DNA from: Streptomyces sp. NBC_00582 | Lineage (GTDB): Bacteria > Actinomycetota > Actinomycetes > Streptomycetales > Streptomycetaceae | NCBI RefSeq assembly: GCF_036345155.1 | Contig: NZ_CP107772.1 | Span: 1,364,001 to 1,428,000, forward strand | DNA length: 64,000 bases | Reading direction: 5' to 3' | Part shown: positions 3,029-35,354 of the stretch, piece by piece | Layout: each line of letters opens with the position of its first letter | Position numbering within the stretch: position 1 is the first letter of the stretch | Program-made: the position numbers and the translations under genes | Notes under the pieces: generated by a model | The model's database searches: none | What the model saw: only the letters and a program-made list of their open reading frames with translations | What the model was told of the DNA's origin: nothing

Positions 3029-3051
3029 GTTGTACCAACAGGCACTGACAA
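3029..3051 (-). promoter_or_regulatory. PafBC-type (RecA-NDp-like) promoter for the STM4015 operon
   Basis: On the minus strand this reads TTGTCAGTG, eight bases, then TACAAC. The published mycobacterial DNA-damage promoter motif is TTGTCRGTG-N8-TAnnnT, recognised through the WYL-domain activator PafBC. The upstream element is a perfect match and the -10 differs only in the last base (C for T). It would place the transcript start about 65 bases before the STM4015 ATG. Regulation by PafBC in this organism is inferred. Confidence 0.65.
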
Positions 3052-3089
3052 CGCCCCTCGGCGGGGCCGGATTCGGGGCGTTGTCAGTG
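3043..3089. repeat. 15-bp perfect inverted repeat formed by two divergent promoter elements
   Basis: CACTGACAACGCCCC at 3043-3057 is the exact reverse complement of 3075-3089, with a 17-base spacer. Each arm contains the TTGTCAGTG element of one of the two divergent promoters, and identity extends six bases (GGGGCG) upstream of the element in each arm. The symmetry implies that both operons are driven by the same activator from one shared site. Confidence 0.85.
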
Positions 3090-3103
3090 GTGGTCCGTAC
3101 GGT
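3081..3103 (+). promoter_or_regulatory. PafBC-type promoter for the 108-aa/DUF6745 pair
   Basis: The sequence is TTGTCAGTG, eight bases, then TACGGT. This matches every position of the TTGTCRGTG-N8-TAnnnT motif known from LexA-independent DNA-damage promoters of actinobacteria. It lies about 50 bases before the ATG of the 108-residue gene at 3153. Confidence 0.72.
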
Positions 3104-3152: not shown

Positions 3153-3479
3153 ATGTACCGGCAGGGAGACGTGCTGATCGTGCCCGTGGCCGCGGAGGCG
3201 GTGCCGCCGCATGTCGCGCAGGCGCCGCGGGAGGCGCGGGACGGGCGGGGGCGGCTGGTGCTGGCGCTGGGCGAGGTCACCGGGCACGCGCATGCCGTGG
3301 TGGGGCCGGGGGATCTGGTGCGCGAGCCGGGGCCGTTCGGTCCGCTGCTGCTCCATCTGCCGCAGGGCGGGCGGGTGGTGCACGAGGAGCACGCGGTGAT
3401 CGCCCTGCCGAAGGGCTGGTACCGGGTGATCCGGCAGCGGGAGTACGTGCCGGGGTCCGTGCGGATCGTCGCGGACTGA
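3153..3479 (+). CDS. Conserved small protein of unknown function, partner of DUF6745
   Basis: A 108-residue soluble protein starting MYRQGDVLIVPV after a GAGGGGAGAG ribosome site. It looks beta-rich and has conserved-looking segments GEVTGHAHAVV (residues about 41-51), HEEHAVIALPKGWY and VIRQREYVPGS. The clustered histidines (HAH, HEEH) could form a metal site, but that is speculation. It is the first gene after the divergent PafBC-type promoter and is followed 55 bases later by the DUF6745 gene, so the two are probably one transcript. I do not know its function. An extension to 3030 in the same frame would cover the promoter and is not likely. Confidence 0.8.
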   Translation: MYRQGDVLIVPVAAEAVPPHVAQAPREARDGRGRLVLALGEVTGHAHAVVGPGDLVREPGPFGPLLLHLPQGGRVVHEEHAVIALPKGWYRVIRQREYVPGSVRIVAD

Positions 3480-25432: not shown

Positions 25433-25539
25433 CATGCGCACACCCGAGCGGATCTGGAGCTGGTGCGGCACGCCGCCGCCAACCCGGCGCTGGGCGTGGA
25501 CGCCATCCGTGGGTGGGTGGCGGCGCTGCCGGTCAGTTG
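25433..25539 (+). pseudogene. Possible 3' remnant of an unidentified gene
   Basis: One forward frame reads HTRADLELVRHAAANP and continues to GWVAALPVS and a stop at 25537-25539, with coding-like third positions (almost all G or C) and a protein-like composition. It has no credible start codon or ribosome site and begins immediately after the GH43 terminator. It may be the tail of a deleted gene, or a chance frame. The family cannot be identified. Its last bases overlap the end of the DUF5682 gene on the other strand. Confidence 0.2.
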
Positions 25540-28334
25540 ACGGCCAGCAGGGCCTCGAGGGCCAGGGCGGTCCCCGGGTGCCGGGCCAACAGCTCCGCCC
25601 CGCCCGGTTCCGCCGTCTCCCAGGTGCCCTCGCAGCCCAGCAGGCCGGCCAGCGCGTCGCAGGTCGCGGGGTGGGCGGCGAGGAGGGCCACGCCGCCGCC
25701 GGTGGGCGCGGACGGTACGGCCAGGGGCGGTGCCTCGGGGAGGCGCCACGGTGGTACCCAGGTGTCCAGCTCCGCCAGCCGCGCCGGGAAGACGCGACCG
25801 GCCTCGCGGACGATCAGCGGGGCCAGTTCGGTGCCGCCCGCGCGCAGGGTGGTGATGAGGGTCGGCAGCCAGGGCAGCAGGACCCGGTCGGGGAGGCGGG
25901 CGAAGGCGTTCGACACCGCCTCGACGACGAAGTCGGCGAGCGCCGGCACCGGTTCGAGGGCGTGGACGAACCCGCTGAGGTAGCGCGGGTAGGCCGGGAC
26001 CACCAGCGGGTTGGCGAGCAGGTCGTCGCAGCGCTCCCGCAGGGCCGTGCGGGGCAGGGTGCCCAGGTGGGTCTGGGCCGCCCACAGCAGGGCGGTCCGC
26101 GCGGGCTCATCGGGATGGGACTGGGCCAGGGCCAGTTCGAGCTGGGTGCGGTCGCAGCCGAGGGAGAGGGCGAGGCTCTCCATGCTGAACAGGAAGCCCA
26201 GCATCGCGGCGACCTGCCGGACGCTCGCGTCCTCGTCGGTGAACGCGGTCGGCAGCAGCGTGCAGTAGTGCGCGTAGCCGGTCTTGACGAAGGACTCGAT
26301 CCAGGACGGCAGGACCGGTTCGGCGGTGCGGTAGTACGCCAGCAGCCGGCGGACGCGGCGCAGCACCTCCGGGGCCCCGTCGACACTGCGCTCCGCCGCC
26401 AGGACCTCCAGGGCCCGGGTGCCCAGTTCGTCGGCGAGCCGACGGCTGCGCAGATAGAGGATCGCGTCCTCGACCGTCGCGAGGACGGTCGCCGCCGTGG
26501 CCTGCGGAGCGTACGCGGTGCGGCGCAGCCGCTGCTCCAGGACCTGTTCGATGCTGACGCCCTCGTAGCCCAGTTCGATCAGCGACCGCTGGTGGGTGCC
26601 GAGGGCGAGGTCCCAGGACTCCTGGATGGGACGCTCACCGAGGCTGCGGTCGCCCATGATGGGGCGGGCGGCACCCTCGGGCAGCAGTCGGCGCAGCATC
26701 CACAGCACGTCGGAGCAGTGCGCCAGTTCGGGCCGGGCCGCGATGTCCAGCAGGGCCCGCTGGACCCCGCGCTGCTGGAGTTTCAGGTTCAGCGGGGTGA
26801 GCCGGTCGTGGACGTCCCGGGCCAGCGGCGGCAGCGCGTCGTAGCCGACCTGGCCGACCCGGTCGCCGCCCATCATGATCTCGACCAGCCGGCCCACGTC
26901 CCGCCGGCCCGGCACGCGGTCCTTCTCGATGCAGGTGACGGCCGCGTCCTGGAAGTCGTACGGCGTCGGCTTGGCGCGGTCGCGCATGCCGGCCAGCAGG
27001 ATCGACGTCTCGAAGACGGCGATGGCGTCGGCGGTGGAGGCGAGGTAGCCGTTGCGTCGGGCGGCGCGCACGATCTCCACCGACCAGCCGAGCAGTTCGG
27101 CCTCGTCGAGGGAGTCGAGGACCGGCGGCCTCTGGAGGAACCCGGTGAGCCTGTCGGCGGGCGGAACCTGGGCGGGCATGGGCGCTGCCGGTGCGGCGAG
27201 GCTCTTCCTCGGTTTCGTGCCCGCCTGGCCCGCCAGCCGGTACGGCTTGACGCGGGTGCGCTTGAGGTTCTTGGCCCATTCCGTGGCGGCGATGGAGACC
27301 GAGCCCGCGGCGAGGCCGAACTGGGCCTCGATCGCGGCGTGGCTGGACGGGATCAGTCCGTGCCGCCACCTGGTGCCGCTGGGCGCGGTGATGGTGAAGG
27401 TGTCGCTGCCGTGCACACCGAACTCGGCGACCCGGCTGGCCGCGTGGAACGCTCCGCAGACGTAGAGGCAGTCGGCGGGGTCGGTGCCGGTGGCGGCGAG
27501 GTGCTCGCGCATCCGCGTCCACATGTGGCGCTCGCGGTCCTCGTCGACGCGCACCTTGTGCGGCTCGCCCGGTGCGAGGCGCCGGAACAGGCTGCCGATG
27601 AGCAGCATCACCTGACGGTAGGTGTCGTGGTCGCTGTCGCCGAGGGGCAGTTCGACGTACTGGTGCCACCACTCGGACCAGTGGCGGACCCGGCCGTGCC
27701 GCAGGAGGTGCTCCTCCAGCTCGGCGAAGCGGGGGCGCAGGTCGCCGATCTCCACGCCGACGGCGTCGCCGTGCAGGGCGCTCTCCTCGCCGGCCGCCGG
27801 GTCCGCCGGGGTCGCTTCACCCGTCTCCGTCCCGGGCTCCCCCTCTTTCTCCCACTGGAACACATGGTCCGAGGAACGGTCGACGAGGACCAGTTCGACG
27901 CCGGGGGTGTCGAGGGCGTAGGCGATGGCCTGGTACTCGGCGGAGGCCTCCGTGATCGGGGCGACGACCGACAGCGGGGACCAGTCGGCGGGGAAGCCCT
28001 CGACCTCCGACGCGAACGCCTGAACGGCCACCGGGAGGCGGCAGTTGCGCAGCTCGGTCAGGAGGGGGGCCATGTCCTCGCACAGCTCCAGGTAGACCAC
28101 TTTCGGCTGCTTCTCGCGCAGTCTGCGGGCCATGGCGATCGCCGAGGCCGGCGAGTGGTGGCAGACGGGGAAGATCTCCAGCGGCTCCCTCACCGCGCGC
28201 TCGACGTCGTCGACGATGCCGCGCAGGATGCCCTCCAGGGCGCCGGGTCCGTCGGCGAACGCCGTGGCGGCCTCGTGGAGTTGACCGCGCAGGCCCTCGA
28301 AGGTGCTGCCGGTGCTCCTCTGTGCGCCGCTCAT
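25533..28334 (-). CDS. DUF5682-family protein (YehM-like)
   Basis: A 933-residue soluble protein, last gene of the SWIM-VWA-MoxR-DUF5682 operon. The N-terminal region has EIFPVCHHSPASA and KVVYLELCEDM segments, which look like a conserved core. A mid-region has YVCGAFHAA and TITAPSGTRWRHGLIPSSHAA. The C-terminal half is a long alpha-helical, HEAT-like stretch. In E. coli the corresponding gene set is yehL (MoxR ATPase), yehM, yehP (VWA) and yehQ (SWIM); none has an established function. The ATG overlaps the MoxR stop (ATGA). It is probably the effector or scaffold of the complex, but that is a guess. Confidence 0.82.
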   Translation of the reverse strand: MSGAQRSTGSTFEGLRGQLHEAATAFADGPGALEGILRGIVDDVERAVREPLEIFPVCHHSPASAIAMARRLREKQPKVVYLELCEDMAPLLTELRNCRLPVAVQAFASEVEGFPADWSPLSVVAPITEASAEYQAIAYALDTPGVELVLVDRSSDHVFQWEKEGEPGTETGEATPADPAAGEESALHGDAVGVEIGDLRPRFAELEEHLLRHGRVRHWSEWWHQYVELPLGDSDHDTYRQVMLLIGSLFRRLAPGEPHKVRVDEDRERHMWTRMREHLAATGTDPADCLYVCGAFHAASRVAEFGVHGSDTFTITAPSGTRWRHGLIPSSHAAIEAQFGLAAGSVSIAATEWAKNLKRTRVKPYRLAGQAGTKPRKSLAAPAAPMPAQVPPADRLTGFLQRPPVLDSLDEAELLGWSVEIVRAARRNGYLASTADAIAVFETSILLAGMRDRAKPTPYDFQDAAVTCIEKDRVPGRRDVGRLVEIMMGGDRVGQVGYDALPPLARDVHDRLTPLNLKLQQRGVQRALLDIAARPELAHCSDVLWMLRRLLPEGAARPIMGDRSLGERPIQESWDLALGTHQRSLIELGYEGVSIEQVLEQRLRRTAYAPQATAATVLATVEDAILYLRSRRLADELGTRALEVLAAERSVDGAPEVLRRVRRLLAYYRTAEPVLPSWIESFVKTGYAHYCTLLPTAFTDEDASVRQVAAMLGFLFSMESLALSLGCDRTQLELALAQSHPDEPARTALLWAAQTHLGTLPRTALRERCDDLLANPLVVPAYPRYLSGFVHALEPVPALADFVVEAVSNAFARLPDRVLLPWLPTLITTLRAGGTELAPLIVREAGRVFPARLAELDTWVPPWRLPEAPPLAVPSAPTGGGVALLAAHPATCDALAGLLGCEGTWETAEPGGAELLARHPGTALALEALLAVN

Positions 28335-29452
28335 GACAGGGTCGCGATCGTGTCGCGGCCGCCTTCGAGGAACTCCGGCCAGGAGCCGCCCTCTTCCTTG
28401 CTGCGCGGCTCGACGACGCCGTGCAGGTACTTGTTGAGGATGGCGAGGTCCTCGGGCTCGCGCCGGGCGAGGGAGCCGACGAGGGAGGAGGCGAGGGTGC
28501 GGGCGGTCAGGGCCCGCTCGCCGAAGAAGTTGCTGTGCAGGATGGCGTCCTCCAGGACGCCGATCTGCTCGGCGGTGGACAGGGCGGACTCCAGTTTCTC
28601 GTCGTCGCTGCCGGCGGCGGCCGCGGAGGCCCGCAGGTCGGCGAAGCTCTGCAGCAGCACGTCCAGCAGGGTCGGCGGGACGTCGAGTTCGATCCGGTGG
28701 CGGCGCAGGAGTTCCTCGGTGCGGAAGCGGACGATCTCCGCCTCGCTCTTCTTGTTCGTCACCACCGGGATGCGGACGAAGTTGAAGCGGCGCTTGAGGG
28801 CGGAGGAGAGGTCGTTGACGCCCCGGTCGCGGCTGTTGGCGGTGGCGATGATCGAGAAGCCCGGCTGGGCGAAGACGATGTTCTCCCCGCCGGCGCCGTC
28901 CAGTTCGGGGACGGAGATGTACTTCTCGGAGAGGATCGAGATCAGCGCGTCCTGGACGTCGCTGGTGGACCGGGTGAGTTCCTCGAAGCGGCCGATGGTG
29001 CCGGTCTCCATCGCGGTCATGATCGGCGAGGGGATCATCGACTCGCGCGACTGGCCCTTGGCGATCACCATGGACACGTTCCACGAGTACTTGATGTGGT
29101 CCTCGGTGGTGCCCGCCGTACCCTGCACGACCTGGGTGGAGTTGCGGCAGATCGCCGCCGACAGCAGCTCGGCGAGCCAGCTCTTTCCGGTGCCGGGGTC
29201 GCCGATGAGCAGCAGTCCCCGGTCGGAGGCCAGGGTCACGATGGAACGCTCGACGAAGCTGCGGTCGCCGAACCACTTCTGGTCGATCGTCCGGTCGAGG
29301 CCGTCGGCGCGCTCGGAGCCCAGGATGAACACCCGGATCATCTTCGGCGACAGCCGCCAGGAGAACGGCTTGGGGTGGTCGTCGATCGACTCCAGCCAGT
29401 CCAGTTCCTCGGCGAACTTGATCTCGGCGGGGGCGCGCAACAGGTCGGTCAT
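28331..29452 (-). CDS. MoxR-family AAA+ ATPase (YehL-like)
   Basis: A 373-residue AAA+ protein with Walker A GDPGTGKS (residues 84-91). A FEELTR segment lies in the Walker B region, TANSRDRG is sensor 1 and LKRRFNF provides an arginine-finger-like region. MoxR ATPases work as ring chaperones that act on partner proteins through a VWA adaptor, and the VWA gene lies directly upstream (34-base gap). I prefer the ATG at 29452 (AAAGG seven bases away) to the GTG one codon earlier. The stop overlaps the DUF5682 ATG. It probably remodels a target in response to the stress that turns on this operon. Confidence 0.9.
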   Translation of the reverse strand: MTDLLRAPAEIKFAEELDWLESIDDHPKPFSWRLSPKMIRVFILGSERADGLDRTIDQKWFGDRSFVERSIVTLASDRGLLLIGDPGTGKSWLAELLSAAICRNSTQVVQGTAGTTEDHIKYSWNVSMVIAKGQSRESMIPSPIMTAMETGTIGRFEELTRSTSDVQDALISILSEKYISVPELDGAGGENIVFAQPGFSIIATANSRDRGVNDLSSALKRRFNFVRIPVVTNKKSEAEIVRFRTEELLRRHRIELDVPPTLLDVLLQSFADLRASAAAAGSDDEKLESALSTAEQIGVLEDAILHSNFFGERALTARTLASSLVGSLARREPEDLAILNKYLHGVVEPRSKEEGGSWPEFLEGGRDTIATLS

Positions 29453-29486: not shown

Positions 29487-30923
29487 TCAGGTGAGGAACG
29501 TCTTGAGCTCGTGGACGAGCTTGCGGATGTGACCGGAGATCACCGGTGTGCCCTGGTCCTTGAAGCGCTCCCGGAACCAGGGGTTGACACTGCCGCGCCC
29601 GGAGCTGGTCACCGAGCCGACGGGGATGAACTTGACCCCGGAGCGGTGGAGGGCGGCCATGCTGTCGAACAGCGGCTGGTGCTGCCATTCGTAGAAGTCG
29701 GAGATCCACACCACGACGGTGTTGCGGGGCTCGGCGATCTTCGGCTGGGCCAGGGCCATCGCCACCGTGCCGTCGGTGCCGCCGCCGAGCTGGGTGCGCA
29801 GCAGGGTCTCGAAGGGGTCGTGCACCCAGGGGGTGAGGTCGACGGCCCGGGTGTCGTACGCGACGAGGTGGACGTCGACCTTCGGCAGTCCGGCGAAGAT
29901 CGACGCCAGGATGGTGCAGTTGACCATCGAGTCGACCATCGAGCCCGACTGGTCGACGACCACGATCAGCCGCTGCGGGGTCGTCTTGCGCGCGGTGTGC
30001 CGGTAGTAGAGGCGGTCGACGTAGAGCCGCTCCTCCTCGGGGCTGTAGTTGGTGAGGTTCTTCCAGATCGTGCGGTCGAGGTCGAGGTTGCGGAAGACGC
30101 GCTTGGGCGGGATCGAGCGGTCGATCGCGCCGACGGTGGACTTCTCGACCTGGGTGCGCAGGACTTCCGCGACCTCGTCGACGAACCGGCGGATCAGCGA
30201 CTTCGCGTTGGCGAGGGCCACACCGGAGAGGTTGTTCTTGTCGCGCAGCAGCTGCTCGATGAGCGACATGCTCGGGGTGAGGCGGGCGGCGAGCGCGGGG
30301 TCGGCGAGTACCTCGCGCAGCCGCATACGGCGGACCAGGTCGGCCTCCAGGGCGCCCAGTTCCGGTCCGATCGCCGGGATGAGGGTGCCGAGGTCGGGGG
30401 TGGCACGGTGGCCGCCGGTGCCGGTGGGGCTCACGCCCCGGCCCGCGCCCCGGCCCGCGCCGCGGCCGCCGCGCAGGTCGCCGGGTGAGCAGCCCAGGGC
30501 GCGCTCCAGCCAGCCGGCGTCGGACTGCCAGCGGGAGAGCTGCCCCGCGCTGACGGCTCCGTTGCCGGTGGCGAACACGTTGAGCAGGACCTTGGACACC
30601 AGGGCGGCGCGGCGCACCTCCGCGGCACCGTCGCGCACGTCGTCGGTGTCATCGGCGTCGTCGGCCACCATCAGGCCGTCGAACTCGTCCGCCAGGTGCG
30701 GATGGCGCTGCACGATCGAGTCGACGGCGGTCTGCGGGTCCAGCAGGGCGGGCGGCAGGCCGATGTCCTCGACGACGGCGAGGCTCGCCGACTCCAGCGC
30801 GGCCTGCTCCTCGGGATCGAAGAGACGGGCGAGGAGCCGCCAGTACAGAACCTGCCGGCGGTTGTCGTACGGAGCGGGCTCGGGCGCCGGGGCGGGTACC
30901 GGAGCGGAGGTCGGTTCGGTCAT
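29487..30923 (-). CDS. VWA-domain protein, MoxR partner (YehP-like)
   Basis: A 478-residue protein. Residues 1-310 are mostly helical, with a Gly/Arg-rich linker near 150-170. The C-terminal von Willebrand A domain has a complete MIDAS: D324-x-S326-x-S328, the GGGTDG loop with T383, and D409 in WISDFYE. Such proteins are metal-dependent adaptors for MoxR ATPases. The ATG overlaps the stop of the SWIM gene (ATGA), so the two are coupled. No export signal is present; the complex should be cytoplasmic. Confidence 0.9.
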   Translation of the reverse strand: MTEPTSAPVPAPAPEPAPYDNRRQVLYWRLLARLFDPEEQAALESASLAVVEDIGLPPALLDPQTAVDSIVQRHPHLADEFDGLMVADDADDTDDVRDGAAEVRRAALVSKVLLNVFATGNGAVSAGQLSRWQSDAGWLERALGCSPGDLRGGRGAGRGAGRGVSPTGTGGHRATPDLGTLIPAIGPELGALEADLVRRMRLREVLADPALAARLTPSMSLIEQLLRDKNNLSGVALANAKSLIRRFVDEVAEVLRTQVEKSTVGAIDRSIPPKRVFRNLDLDRTIWKNLTNYSPEEERLYVDRLYYRHTARKTTPQRLIVVVDQSGSMVDSMVNCTILASIFAGLPKVDVHLVAYDTRAVDLTPWVHDPFETLLRTQLGGGTDGTVAMALAQPKIAEPRNTVVVWISDFYEWQHQPLFDSMAALHRSGVKFIPVGSVTSSGRGSVNPWFRERFKDQGTPVISGHIRKLVHELKTFLT

Positions 30924-32869
30924 GTGCGCAGCAGCCTTCCCGCTCGTTCCCGCAGGACGGTCACGGCGTCGGTGGCGGCCTTCTCGGCCTTGACGCCCGC
31001 CTTGTCGGTGGTGCCGCCGGCCCAGGCGCCCGCCTGGAGGGCGACGGTCTTCCTGCGCACGGTGGTCTCGACCGCGAGCGGCTGGAGCCGGAAGGCGCCG
31101 CCGTCCCAGCGGAGCAGGCCGATGCAGGCGCCGGAGCCCGCGACGGCCTCGGGGGTGAGCGGGCCCGCGACCGGGATGCGGTCGGTGTCGACGACGAGGT
31201 CGTCGCCCGCGCTGGTGAGGACGAGGGTGTCGCCGTCCTGCCGGGTGGTGTAGCCCTCCAGGAACACCGGTTCCGCGAGACGCGCGGGGTGGCGGTCCAG
31301 GGGTGCGGTGGCCGTGGCGGTGGCGGTCGGCAGGGCGACGCGGGCGGTGGCGAAGGGGTCCGCCGGTTCGCCCGGCCGGGCCCGGGTGTCGTCCCAGAGG
31401 AGGTCGCCCTCGTCGGTGAGCGGCATGGCGTCCAGACGCATCGCCCGGCCTTCGCCGAGGGCGGCCAGCAGCGACAGATGCGGTCGCAGCAACTGCCAGA
31501 CGCCGGCCGCGACCACGGTGTCCGGCTTGGGCACCGAGACGCTCGCGCGGACCAGGCGGGGCGTGCTGCCGTCGTCGGGTTCGAAGACGGCGTGGACCTG
31601 GGCCTGGGCGGCGGTCGCGTGTTCGTGCAGATCGATGCCGAGGGGCAGCAGCCGGCCGGTGGCGGTGCCCGGGGCGGGCCGGTCGGCGGCGCCGGGCCGG
31701 GTGAGCAGCAGGGCGCGCGCCCACAGATCGCCCCAGCGGCGGGCCGGGATGTGCTCCAGGGCGGATCCGGGGCAGGAGGCGGCGAGTTCGGCGGAGAATC
31801 CGTCGAGGAGGGAGGCCAGGCGGCGCAGTTCGGGCCGGGGCAGCATCGCGGAGACGATCTGGGCGGCGCCGCCGACGAGTTCGTGGTCGATGCCCTGCCA
31901 GCCGGCGCGGGCGAGGTCCGCGAGCCAGGTGCGGGCGGCGGCGAGCAGGTTGGCCTGCTGCGGGTCGCCGGGAGCCGGGGCGGTGTCGTCGTCGCGGGTG
32001 CGGCCGGTGGAGGCGTCGGCGCGGGCGGTGAGGGCGTCGTGGACGGCGCCGAGGAGGGCGGTGCGGGCGGCGGCCAGGGCGAGGAGGTGGTCCTCGCCGG
32101 CGGTGCCCGCGGCGGCCTTCTCGGCGGCCTCGGCGACCGGGGAGGCCAGGGGGCTGCCGGCGACGGCCCGGGCGAGGTCGGCGAGACCTGCGACCTGTTC
32201 GGGCCGGGGCCGCAGGAGCCCCGCGACGAGACAGCGGTCGAAGGCGTCGGTCGCGGCCAGGGCCTCTTCCAGCCCGTCCACCGGGGCGCCGAGCACGCCG
32301 GCGGACTCTCCCGCGCCGCCGGGATCCACGGCCCCCTCGGAGGCGGACGCCCCGCTGGTCTCCGCGCGCGTCGGGGCGAACCACTGCATCTCGGGCAACG
32401 GAGCGGTGACCGGCGCCTGTTCGAGATAGGCGAGGTGGCGCAGGAACCGGCTGAAGACGGGGGCGGCGGCCGCCTTGCCGTCCGCCTGCTGAGGGCGGGT
32501 GCCGGTCATCGCGGCGGTGAGGGCGGCGGCGTCGGGCTCGCCGCCCGTCGGCTCGACGCGCAGATAGCGGGCGACGCGCAGACCGCCGTACTGAAGGACC
32601 GCCTCGGTGATCAGGGCGCGCAGGTGATTGCAGAACGAGCCGCGCGCGCCGCCGCAGGGCCGGTTGTTGTTGGTGCTGCACGCGAAGGCGTAGGTCCCGG
32701 ACGCGATCGACGAGACGTACACCCGCTCGATGTCCGAACCGCTGGAGACGACCCCTTGCAGTCGTCCGTCGGCCAGTTCGACGAAGGGGACCTTGGCGAG
32801 TTTGCGCGGCCGGGCGGGCGGCACCACCCGGGCCGTGCTCGCCCTCTCCCAGTTCTCCCAGTCCGACAA
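30920..32869 (-). CDS. SWIM-type zinc-finger protein (YehQ-like)
   Basis: A 649-residue protein, first gene of the operon. Residues 64-82 carry C-x7-C-x7-C-x-H, a SWIM-like zinc motif (the standard form is CxC..CxH, so this is a variant). The rest is alpha-rich with a beta-rich C-terminal part. SWIM modules bind DNA or protein. The start is a TTG codon before SDWENW, with AAAGGAG eight bases upstream; the longer in-frame reading from 32938 lacks a ribosome site. A perfect TTGTCAGTG-N8-TAGGTT promoter lies about 90 bases upstream. The likely role is target recognition for the MoxR-VWA machine. Confidence 0.82.
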   Translation of the reverse strand: MSDWENWERASTARVVPPARPRKLAKVPFVELADGRLQGVVSSGSDIERVYVSSIASGTYAFACSTNNNRPCGGARGSFCNHLRALITEAVLQYGGLRVARYLRVEPTGGEPDAAALTAAMTGTRPQQADGKAAAAPVFSRFLRHLAYLEQAPVTAPLPEMQWFAPTRAETSGASASEGAVDPGGAGESAGVLGAPVDGLEEALAATDAFDRCLVAGLLRPRPEQVAGLADLARAVAGSPLASPVAEAAEKAAAGTAGEDHLLALAAARTALLGAVHDALTARADASTGRTRDDDTAPAPGDPQQANLLAAARTWLADLARAGWQGIDHELVGGAAQIVSAMLPRPELRRLASLLDGFSAELAASCPGSALEHIPARRWGDLWARALLLTRPGAADRPAPGTATGRLLPLGIDLHEHATAAQAQVHAVFEPDDGSTPRLVRASVSVPKPDTVVAAGVWQLLRPHLSLLAALGEGRAMRLDAMPLTDEGDLLWDDTRARPGEPADPFATARVALPTATATATAPLDRHPARLAEPVFLEGYTTRQDGDTLVLTSAGDDLVVDTDRIPVAGPLTPEAVAGSGACIGLLRWDGGAFRLQPLAVETTVRRKTVALQAGAWAGGTTDKAGVKAEKAATDAVTVLRERAGRLLRT

Positions 32870-32960
32870 CTCATCAGCTCCTTTGCGGCACACGGCTGCA
32901 CACGCCGGACCGGCGCGGCACAGGGGGATTCGTCGCACCAGAGCGGCGCGACACCAATCA

Positions 32961-32983
32961 ACCTATCGGCGACCACTGACAAC
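32961..32983 (-). promoter_or_regulatory. PafBC-type promoter for the SWIM-VWA-MoxR-DUF5682 operon
   Basis: On the minus strand the sequence is TTGTCAGTG, eight bases, then TAGGTT, an exact match to the RecA-NDp-type motif TTGTCRGTG-N8-TAnnnT. The upstream element is identical to the two at 3043-3089. The transcript would start about 85 bases before the TTG of the SWIM gene. Damage induction is inferred from the motif. Confidence 0.75.
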
Positions 32984-33098: not shown

Positions 33099-35354
33099 TT
33101 GAGCGGGCAGGGGGCGGCGTTCGGGGCGCTGCTGCGGGAGTTGCGGCTGGCCGCGTCGCAGACCATCGAGGGTCTGGCGGAGGCGTCGGGGGTCAGTGTG
33201 CGGGGCATCGGCGACCTGGAGCGGGGGCGGCGGGCGGCTCCGCAGCGCCGTACGGTCGCGGCGCTCGCGGACGGGCTGGGCCTGGACGAGTCGCTGCGGG
33301 AGCGGCTGCTGGCGGCCGCCCGGGCGGGACGCGCTCCCGGTTACAGTCCGGTGGGCGTCCGGGCGTTCCCGCGCGGGATCGACGACTTCGTGGGCCGGGA
33401 GCCGCAGGTGGCGCGGCTGACGGAGCTGGCCGGTCGGCGGGACGCGGCGCAGCCGGTGGTGGTGGCGGTGTCGGGGCCCCCGGGCGCGGGCAAGACGACC
33501 CTCGCGCTGCACGCGGCCCGCGCGCTCGCCGACCGGTTCCCCGACGGGCAGTTGGTGGTCGACCTGTGCGGCACGGACGACGAGCCGCCCGCTGCCCCGG
33601 AGCTGGTCCTGCGGGTGCTGAAGGCCCTCCAGGTGGCCGACCGGGATCTCGCCCAGGCCGGTCCTGACGGTCATCCGGCCCTGTACCGGCAGGTGATGGC
33701 GGATCGGCGCTGTCTGCTGGTGCTGGACGACGCGCGGGACGAGGCCCAGGTACGGCCGCTGCTGCCGGCGGCGGGCGCGGCCATGGTGGTCGTGACGAGC
33801 CGGCGCATGCTGACCGGGCTGGACAGTGTGCACCGGCTGCCGCTCGGGGAGCTGAGCCCGGCGGAGGCCGCCGCCTTCCTCACCGCGCTGGTCGGCGCCG
33901 AGCGGGCGGCGGCCGATCCGGACGCCCTCGCCGATGTCGCCGCCCGCTGCGGGCATCTGCCGCTGGCGCTGCGGGTGGCGGGCAACTGGCTGGCCACCCG
34001 CACCGGTTGGACGGTACGCCGGCTCGCCGACCGGCTGGCGGCCGAGGACCGGCGTCTGGACGCGCTGGCCGCCGGTGACGTACGCGTCGCCGCCGCCTTC
34101 GACCTGTCGTACCGTCAGCTCACCCCCTCGGCGGCCCGGTTGTTCCGGCGGCTCGCGCTGCTCCCGGGCCCGGACACGGGGGCCGCGGGGGCCGCCCGGC
34201 TGACCGGGCAGGCGCTGTTCGACGCCGAGGACACCCTGGAGGAGCTGGTCGAGGCCGGGCTGCTCGGGGCGTACGGCGAGCGGTACCGGCTGCACGATCT
34301 TCTGCGGCTGTACGCCCGTTCGCGCCTGGCGGCCGAGGAGAGCGCGTCCGACGCCGTACGCGCGCGTGCGGCCCTCGACGACTGGCTGCTGGACACCACG
34401 GTGGTGGCCGGGCGCTGGTTCGAGCCGGACCACGGGGCGCCGCCCGCCGACTGGGACGGGGCGGTCGATCTGTCGAGCGCGGACCGGGCCCGGGTCTGGC
34501 TGCAGGCGGAGAGCGCGAACTGGCTGGCGGCGCTGCGCGCGGCGGCGGCCGAGGGGGCGCACCCGACCGTGGTGGAGGTGGCGGAGGCGCTGCACTGGTT
34601 CTCCGACCAGTGGATCTTCTGGGGACACTGGCCCGAGGTCTTCGGCACGGCCGCCCGCTCGGCGCGCGAGCTGGGCGATCCTGTGCTGGAGGCGACGCAC
34701 CTCAACTACCACGCGTGGGCGCTGCTCACCTGCGAGGGACGCCCGCACGACAGCCTGGACCGCTCCGCCGAGGCGCTCGAGGCCGCGCGGCGGGCCGGTG
34801 ACGTACGGCAGGAGGCGTGGGCGCACATCTATCGGGGTCTGGCGTTCCGCCGCCTGGGCGACCACGGCCCGGCCGCCGGGCACATGCACGGCGCGGTCAC
34901 GCTGTTCGAGGCCGCGGGCGATCTGCACGGCGGTCTCCAGGCCCGGCACGGGCGCGCGCTGATCCTGATGGACTCGGGCCGCCCCGAGGAGGCCCTCGTG
35001 GTGTACGAGGAGACGCTGGCGTTCCTGGAGCGGGTCCAGGACCGGCTCGCGCCGCACATCGCCGAGTTCGGCCGGGCCGGTATGCACTCGGGGATGGGCG
35101 CCTGCCACGCCCTGAGGAGGCGCTGGGCGGACTCGGTCGCGCACCACCGCGCCGCCATGGCCATCTGGCGCGGCACCGGCAACACGGCCATGGAGAGCCG
35201 CCAGCTCGTCCACCTGGGCGAGGCCCTGCTGGCCGCCGGTCGGCGGGCCGAGGCGCGGGAGGCCTTCGTCCGCTGTCTCTCCCTCGGCCCGGACGCCGAC
35301 CCGCAGCGTGTCACGGCGGCCCGCGACGCCCTCGCCCGCCTCGACACGCCCTAG
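33099..35354 (+). CDS. HTH-NB-ARC-TPR (STAND) regulator
   Basis: A 751-residue protein. Residues about 8-75 form an XRE-like helix-turn-helix (TIEGLAEASGVSVRGIGDLERG). Residues about 95-380 are a STAND NB-ARC ATPase with P-loop GPPGAGKTT (126-134), CLLVLDDA as Walker B, and a GHLPLALRVAG (GxP-type) motif. Residues about 480-750 are TPR-like repeats. Such proteins hold a signal-gated ATP switch that controls the HTH. A TTG start is chosen because GGAGGGG lies six bases upstream. It is divergent from the MoxR operon, and with its position 229 bases away it is a candidate regulator of it. Confidence 0.85.
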   Translation: MSGQGAAFGALLRELRLAASQTIEGLAEASGVSVRGIGDLERGRRAAPQRRTVAALADGLGLDESLRERLLAAARAGRAPGYSPVGVRAFPRGIDDFVGREPQVARLTELAGRRDAAQPVVVAVSGPPGAGKTTLALHAARALADRFPDGQLVVDLCGTDDEPPAAPELVLRVLKALQVADRDLAQAGPDGHPALYRQVMADRRCLLVLDDARDEAQVRPLLPAAGAAMVVVTSRRMLTGLDSVHRLPLGELSPAEAAAFLTALVGAERAAADPDALADVAARCGHLPLALRVAGNWLATRTGWTVRRLADRLAAEDRRLDALAAGDVRVAAAFDLSYRQLTPSAARLFRRLALLPGPDTGAAGAARLTGQALFDAEDTLEELVEAGLLGAYGERYRLHDLLRLYARSRLAAEESASDAVRARAALDDWLLDTTVVAGRWFEPDHGAPPADWDGAVDLSSADRARVWLQAESANWLAALRAAAAEGAHPTVVEVAEALHWFSDQWIFWGHWPEVFGTAARSARELGDPVLEATHLNYHAWALLTCEGRPHDSLDRSAEALEAARRAGDVRQEAWAHIYRGLAFRRLGDHGPAAGHMHGAVTLFEAAGDLHGGLQARHGRALILMDSGRPEEALVVYEETLAFLERVQDRLAPHIAEFGRAGMHSGMGACHALRRRWADSVAHHRAAMAIWRGTGNTAMESRQLVHLGEALLAAGRRAEAREAFVRCLSLGPDADPQRVTAARDALARLDTP

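Follow-up and report, generated by a model that had tools for sequence, protein, structure and literature searches.

A four-gene yeh-type operon of Streptomyces sp. NBC_00582, encoding a MoxR-type AAA+ ATPase and a VWA partner, very probably belongs to the PafBC regulon. We regard this as the best explanation of its sequence context, because a RecA-NDp/PafBC-type promoter is kept before the operon and its two paralogues, because the genome encodes PafB and PafC, and because the same motif precedes classical repair genes in this genome. The operon lies within the 64,000-nt stretch of DNA analyzed here, hereafter referred to as the window.

On the minus strand, positions 32960-32982 read TTGTCAGTG-GTCGCCGA-TAGGTT, a RecA-NDp/PafBC-type motif. 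The putative promoter, assigned from the motif match and from conservation in orthologous promoters, consists of the upstream TTGTCAGTG element (32974-32982), an 8-nt spacer and, as its 3′ part, the TAGGTT -10 box (32960-32965). In sequence and spacing it agrees with TTGTCRGTG-N8-TANNNT, which we take to be the RecA-NDp/PafBC consensus. The initial annotation had correctly recognized the motif on the minus strand but set it one base off, at 32961-32983. It had also placed the motif about 90 bases before the first gene, and we measured 91 nt from the end of the -10-like box to the likely TTG start at 32869. The pattern TTGTCAGTG-N8-TAGGTT matched the window at this site only and had no match in 100 dinucleotide shuffles. 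The adjoining divergent gene (33099-35354) encodes an HTH/NB-ARC/TPR regulator.

The window has three copies of the nine-base element, one here and two near 3 kb, and all nine bases are identical, as had been claimed for the element at 3 kb. The two 3-kb copies face apart (3043-3051, minus strand; 3081-3089, plus strand). The plus-strand copy has a TANNNT box and forms a second strict motif, TTGTCAGTG-N8-TACGGT (3081..3103), 50 nt before a 108-aa frame (3153-3479); the minus-strand element misses TANNNT at the right spacing by one base. Together these back-to-back RecA-NDp elements span 3029-3103, the strict one leading to the 108-aa frame, which has no Pfam family, and the one-mismatch one to a 317-aa frame.

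Just past the -10 box, the 5′ leader holds a conserved, imperfect inverted repeat (32932..32952, minus strand), which we propose with weak to modest confidence as a 5′-end hairpin or a second operator. Across 92 distinct leaders of type A, the type of the window's operon (five diverged leaders were left out), inner stem pairing was 0.787, compared to 0.709 on average and 0.750 at most in column shuffles. Two-sided changes numbered 29 for the true partner versus 31 when the partner was slid three columns. RNAalifold on a MAFFT alignment of the leaders returned no consensus structure, and leader folding energy, calculated without locus L104, was near that of shuffled sequence (mean z -0.6). A loose version of the palindrome sequence is also present in other promoter sets.

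The operon consists of four minus-strand genes with 4-nt overlaps at two of the three junctions. The first (30920..32869, 649 aa, TTG start) is a gene call without a Pfam family. It is followed by a YehP-like gene for a CoxE-like VWA protein (29487..30923, 478 aa, PF05762), which overlaps the first gene by 4 nt, and by a YehL-like gene for the MoxR-type AAA+ ATPase (28331..29452, 373 aa), assigned by Pfam and by BLAST against E. coli YehL. The last gene (25533..28334, 933 aa), which overlaps the MoxR gene by 4 nt, encodes a DUF5682-type protein with a YehM-like N-terminus. The initial annotation had equated the operon with E. coli yehL, yehM, yehP and yehQ. This stood for YehL (41% identity over 340 residues) and YehP (32% over 290 residues); for YehM it stood over a 104-residue N-terminal stretch (29%), the only part with significant BLAST similarity, and it was not confirmed for YehQ, to which the first protein showed no significant BLAST similarity. 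The 933-aa protein has no Pfam family and no PF18934 match, nor did it match any solved structure in a profile search; several of its close orthologues carry the NCBI name DUF5682. The P-loop (GDPGTGKS) and the VWA metal-site motif (DQSGS) are readable, suggesting that the machine is active.

The first protein had no Pfam match at E ≤ 1, and its putative “SWIM” label derives from gene position and a Cys/His cluster in the sequence; its system B paralogue gives a SWIM match that is weak and falls below threshold (E 0.054). As most relatives have two coupled genes here, one for a small Cys/His SWIM-like protein and one for a protein of ~470 aa, the single frame in the window looks like a fusion. 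The split arrangement was found in 61 of 80 named relatives and in 17 of 17 Pseudonocardiales. The paired genes overlap, and in the cases inspected (40 of the 61) the stop and start codons share a TGATG.

The initial annotation had named loss of the motif from orthologous promoters as grounds for rejecting its proposal; we found the motif retained. For this comparison we used the best 80 of 171 first-gene relatives in named genomes, from Streptomyces and Pseudonocardiales; S. griseoruber DSM 40281 and S. exfoliatus NRRL B-2924 belong to this set. Within these 80, the motif was strict in 69, within one mismatch in 77 and within two mismatches in all 80, and 300 permuted motifs gave no match on the same promoters. 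The 17 Pseudonocardiales, which we take to comprise Actinophytocola, Lentzea, Streptoalloteichus, Crossiella, Amycolatopsis, Goodfellowiella, Actinocrispum and Saccharopolyspora, contributed 10 strict sites, 5 with one mismatch and 2 with two. In the motif-aligned promoters, the majority-base frequency was 0.96 in the nine-base element and 0.83 in the -10 box, whereas the flanks averaged 0.46 (45 bases on the upstream side) and 0.56 (60 bases on the downstream side). The surrounding DNA has thus diverged while the motif was kept. A genus sample of system A gave 22/27 strict sites; with three loci from other genomes added, 24/30 were strict and 29/30 were within one mismatch. The named-locus set and the genus genome sets overlap in part and are therefore not independent.

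These figures also bear on whether the site is a weak constitutive promoter, similar to RecA-NDp but unconnected with damage. The TANNNT box alone is common in promoters, but the nine-base element is better conserved than the -10 box and permuted strict motifs found no match in the promoter sets, and we consider this explanation very improbable.

The genome encodes three YehL-type MoxR genes, the other two being about 42-44% identical to that of the window, and all three yeh-type MoxR systems carry the motif. System B is a divergent pair in which a strict motif faces the SWIM-like and DUF5691 genes and, on the other side, a one-mismatch copy (-10 box CACGGT) faces MoxR-DUF5682-VWA. In system C, a strict motif precedes a DUF4132 gene, which is followed by a gene for a 1671-aa protein that has no Pfam family, the MoxR gene, a frame with matches to YehM as well as YehP, and a gene for a 606-aa protein. 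A further lineage, D, found in other Streptomyces, is closest to E. coli (YehL 63-64%) and has the motif too.

We scored these lineages in type C/D loci (40) and type B loci (40) hand-picked among the matches listed, together with further loci; one (L174) was unscored, its first gene lying off the stretch. In type B, a strict site precedes the SWIM gene in 50/52 operons (within 350 nt of the SWIM start), 46/52 have the SWIM-facing strict site within 700 nt of MoxR, and in 48/52 MoxR is preceded by a site with no more than one mismatch. None of the 52 operons lacks both sites. Nearly all MoxR-facing copies (47/48) have CANNNT in place of TANNNT (e.g., L098:6931-6953). For type C, counted without L112, which comes from another genus and has no site, 23/40 were strict and 35/40 within one mismatch; for type D, 6/8 were strict. 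Five type C and two type D operons of Streptomyces have no site within one mismatch. Permuted strict motifs gave no match on the lineage promoter sets. Beyond what had been noticed at the outset, then, three yeh systems in this genome carry the motif, as do most sampled operons of four lineages.

Across the 11.1-Mb genome, the strict pattern TTGTCRGTG-N8-TANNNT has 29 copies, compared to none for a reversed-pattern control. Twenty-six lie outside called genes and three (L020, L025 and L028) overlap a call. We submitted 20 first genes downstream of motif copies to Pfam and identified recA, uvrB, ruvC, xseA and an O6-methylguanine methyltransferase, as well as helicase genes (two UvrD-like and one DEAD helicase). 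Others encode RecD2-type, macrodomain, SUKH-4, DUF4253, methyltransferase and HAD hydrolase proteins, and 6/20 had no Pfam family at the limits used. We take the motif, from this distribution, to mark a real regulon in this genome. At L020, the overlapping call conflicts with a macrodomain protein gene (780-1457) located behind a RecA-NDp site.

The strict pattern was present in each of 61 Streptomyces genomes, at 11-44 copies per genome and 1504 in total versus 6 control matches. According to a remark in PMC9380542, an initial motif search suggested that S. venezuelae lacks a conserved PafBC motif. The count in 61/61 genomes speaks against that remark as it stands in the passage, with S. venezuelae itself not identified among the genomes counted.

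The genome holds seven WYL matches. An adjacent WYL pair (G000:C1, about 8459.9-8461.1 kb) is the PafB/PafC match, aligning over nearly the full length with M. smegmatis PafB/PafC in structure 7p5x (E 1.3e-50 and 8.6e-51). A regulator different from PafBC, for instance another of these WYL proteins, is quite unlikely to bind the motif. The number of WYL matches and one genome with a fair PafB and no motif would fit such a regulator, but the motif corresponds in sequence and spacing to the mycobacterial RecA-NDp consensus, and the adjacent pair matches PafB/PafC. RecA-NDp promoters are tied to PafBC in the passages used here (PMC8223512, PMC6789036), and PafBC is described in published excerpts as activated by single-stranded DNA. 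We infer that Streptomyces PafBC works like the mycobacterial one.

Membership in the PafBC regulon is weakened by several operons. Among 11 other actinobacterial genomes with yeh operons, all with PafB-like matches, nine have no strict motif anywhere. Of the two that do, G348 has 12 strict motifs, of which one precedes its system A operon while its type B operon lacks one; the five in G169 all lie elsewhere than before its type B operon. The clear exception is G317 (L104 and L112), which has two yeh operons and a PafB of 45% identity but nowhere a strict motif; PafBC may recognize a different sequence there. The Embleya, Nonomuraea and Nocardia operons have two-mismatch versions only, which we count as unclear. 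The PafBC reading thus loses strength from G317, from the seven type C and D operons without a site and from the type B operons of G348 and G169, and further from the two-mismatch operons and the remark in PMC9380542.

We take the LexA box to be GAAC-N4-GTTC, and no exact copy was present in the sampled actinobacterial yeh upstream sets. With the conserved motif and the encoded PafB/PafC, this supports the earlier suggestion that the operon may be part of a LexA-independent damage response. We infer that the operon is induced by damage, with PafBC as activator and no need for RecA or LexA. By analogy with mycobacterial work, DNA damage would yield single-stranded DNA that activates PafBC, and active PafBC would let the housekeeping RNA polymerase start at RecA-NDp promoters, so that the operon is transcribed. 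From what is known of the families, the products would assemble as a MoxR AAA+ ring joined by its VWA partner, the SWIM-like first protein possibly serving as an adaptor and the large DUF5682 protein as a partner. As the cell recovers from DNA damage, the machine may then remodel a protein or nucleoprotein client.

A damage-induced promoter could also drive a defence or cell-fate device triggered by damage, for example by phage, in which a harmful DUF5682 or SWIM-like partner is released once a threshold set by MoxR-VWA is reached. We consider this rather improbable. MoxR-vWA pairs are found in conflict systems of multicellular bacteria according to passages of PMC7159879, system A is patchy (27/121 Streptomyces genomes), and plasmid records from several phyla carry yeh operons. 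However, YehL-type MoxR is present in 116/121 Streptomyces genomes, unlike most defence systems. Pfam found no VMAP or other recognized effector domain in the proteins scanned, and the match of MoxR to the MoxR family of beta-propeller conflict systems was only sub-threshold (E 0.07). The near-universal presence of YehL-type systems across the genus sample leads us to prefer a role as a repair aid over one in defence.

We also looked for damage boxes before yeh operons of other phyla. A plasmid operon of Deinococcus taeanensis has the order SWIM-DUF5691-MoxR-hypothetical-DUF5682-VWA, and just upstream of it lies TTACGCCAGAAACATAA, one mismatch from TTATG-N7-CATAA, which we take to be the radiation-response consensus. 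It is the only such site in a 25-kb stretch, and shuffling the single bases of the upstream region 2000 times produced one in 4 cases. E. coli K-12 yehF-yehQ includes homologous MoxR, VWA and, in part, DUF5682 genes, with a YehQ that is not BLAST-similar to the window's first protein. Just before yehF, the start of the yehF-I cluster that we take to be MolR, it has an SOS-like CTG-N10-CAG site, CTGGATAAAATTACAG (L030:450-465). In an 18-kb CTG-N10-CAG scan this site was joint best (13/20 consensus positions) with an unrelated one, and since that site scores equally, the yehF site is weak on its own. yehL lies about 8 kb downstream of it, and the site does not imply co-transcription. MolR is described in a passage of PMC8533742 as a member of the LexA regulon, and the same source names DdrO as the regulator of an operon that contains genes for DUF4132 and WGR-domain proteins.

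Yeh operons occur on 40 plasmid records from several phyla, some of them chromosome-sized, and 14 of the 40 matches were examined. Three Rhizobiaceae, one Methylosinus and one Hymenobacter operon had no exact LexA-type box and no radiation-response site within one mismatch; one-mismatch LexA-like matches occur in some of these operons. Two further Rhizobium, one Methylobacterium and one Proteus locus (~7 kb upstream) likewise had no exact box apart from one CTGT-N8-ACAG, which in a Rhizobium lies about 0.6 kb ahead of the MoxR gene. An Iodobacter operon had no damage box, but its first gene sits behind an insertion sequence, making it uninformative. Thus eight proteobacterial plasmid-record operons and one Hymenobacter operon had no convincing damage box, which weakens a general damage link across phyla. 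We tentatively suggest, as a possibility that falls well short of even odds, that yeh systems are linked to damage across phyla through several regulators, with a damage-stalled nucleoprotein or repair complex common to them as the client.

Among known systems, RavA-ViaA, NorQ-NorD and other MoxR-VWA chaperones share the AAA+/VWA pair. We know of no SWIM or DUF5682 partner for them, and their clients, in the reports as excerpted, are respiratory or metal enzymes. The MoxR-vWA-VMAP ternary conflict systems (PMC7159879) likewise combine MoxR, vWA and a further partner, whereas no VMAP domain was detected in the four operon proteins (Pfam, E ≤ 1); the passages of that paper used here make no mention of YehL, YehM, DUF5682, DUF4132 or SWIM. 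The SCO6735 macrodomain gene of S. coelicolor has the same RecA-NDp promoter type in Streptomyces, and is UV-induced about 5-fold in the passage drawn on (PMC5087735). It is a single macrodomain gene without a MoxR machine, and for the window operon induction is a prediction. As described in a passage of PMC2669436, D. deserti has a radiation-response motif before a putative five-gene operon, beginning with Deide_18730, that likewise includes MoxR (18710) and VWA (18690), in an order that fits that of D. taeanensis. That operon has a different damage regulator, DdrO, and its likeness lies in MoxR and VWA of the five genes; the passage does not name the E. coli yeh genes.

The nearest published result comes from M. 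smegmatis, where a pafBC mutant shows lower MoxR1, MoxR2 and von Willebrand factor protein (PMC5656591). No paper linking yeh systems to PafBC was found in the open literature among the matches listed.

K-12 annotation describes yehLMPQ as putative or by domain only. To our knowledge, these genes form a conserved E. coli set without an assigned function. The motif data bear on the existence of a PafBC damage response in Streptomyces, a question left open in the passage of PMC9380542. A conserved damage-type promoter precedes all three copies in this genome and most of those sampled in the genus; this shows which condition deserves testing, and the function of the machine can now be sought in the response to broken DNA.
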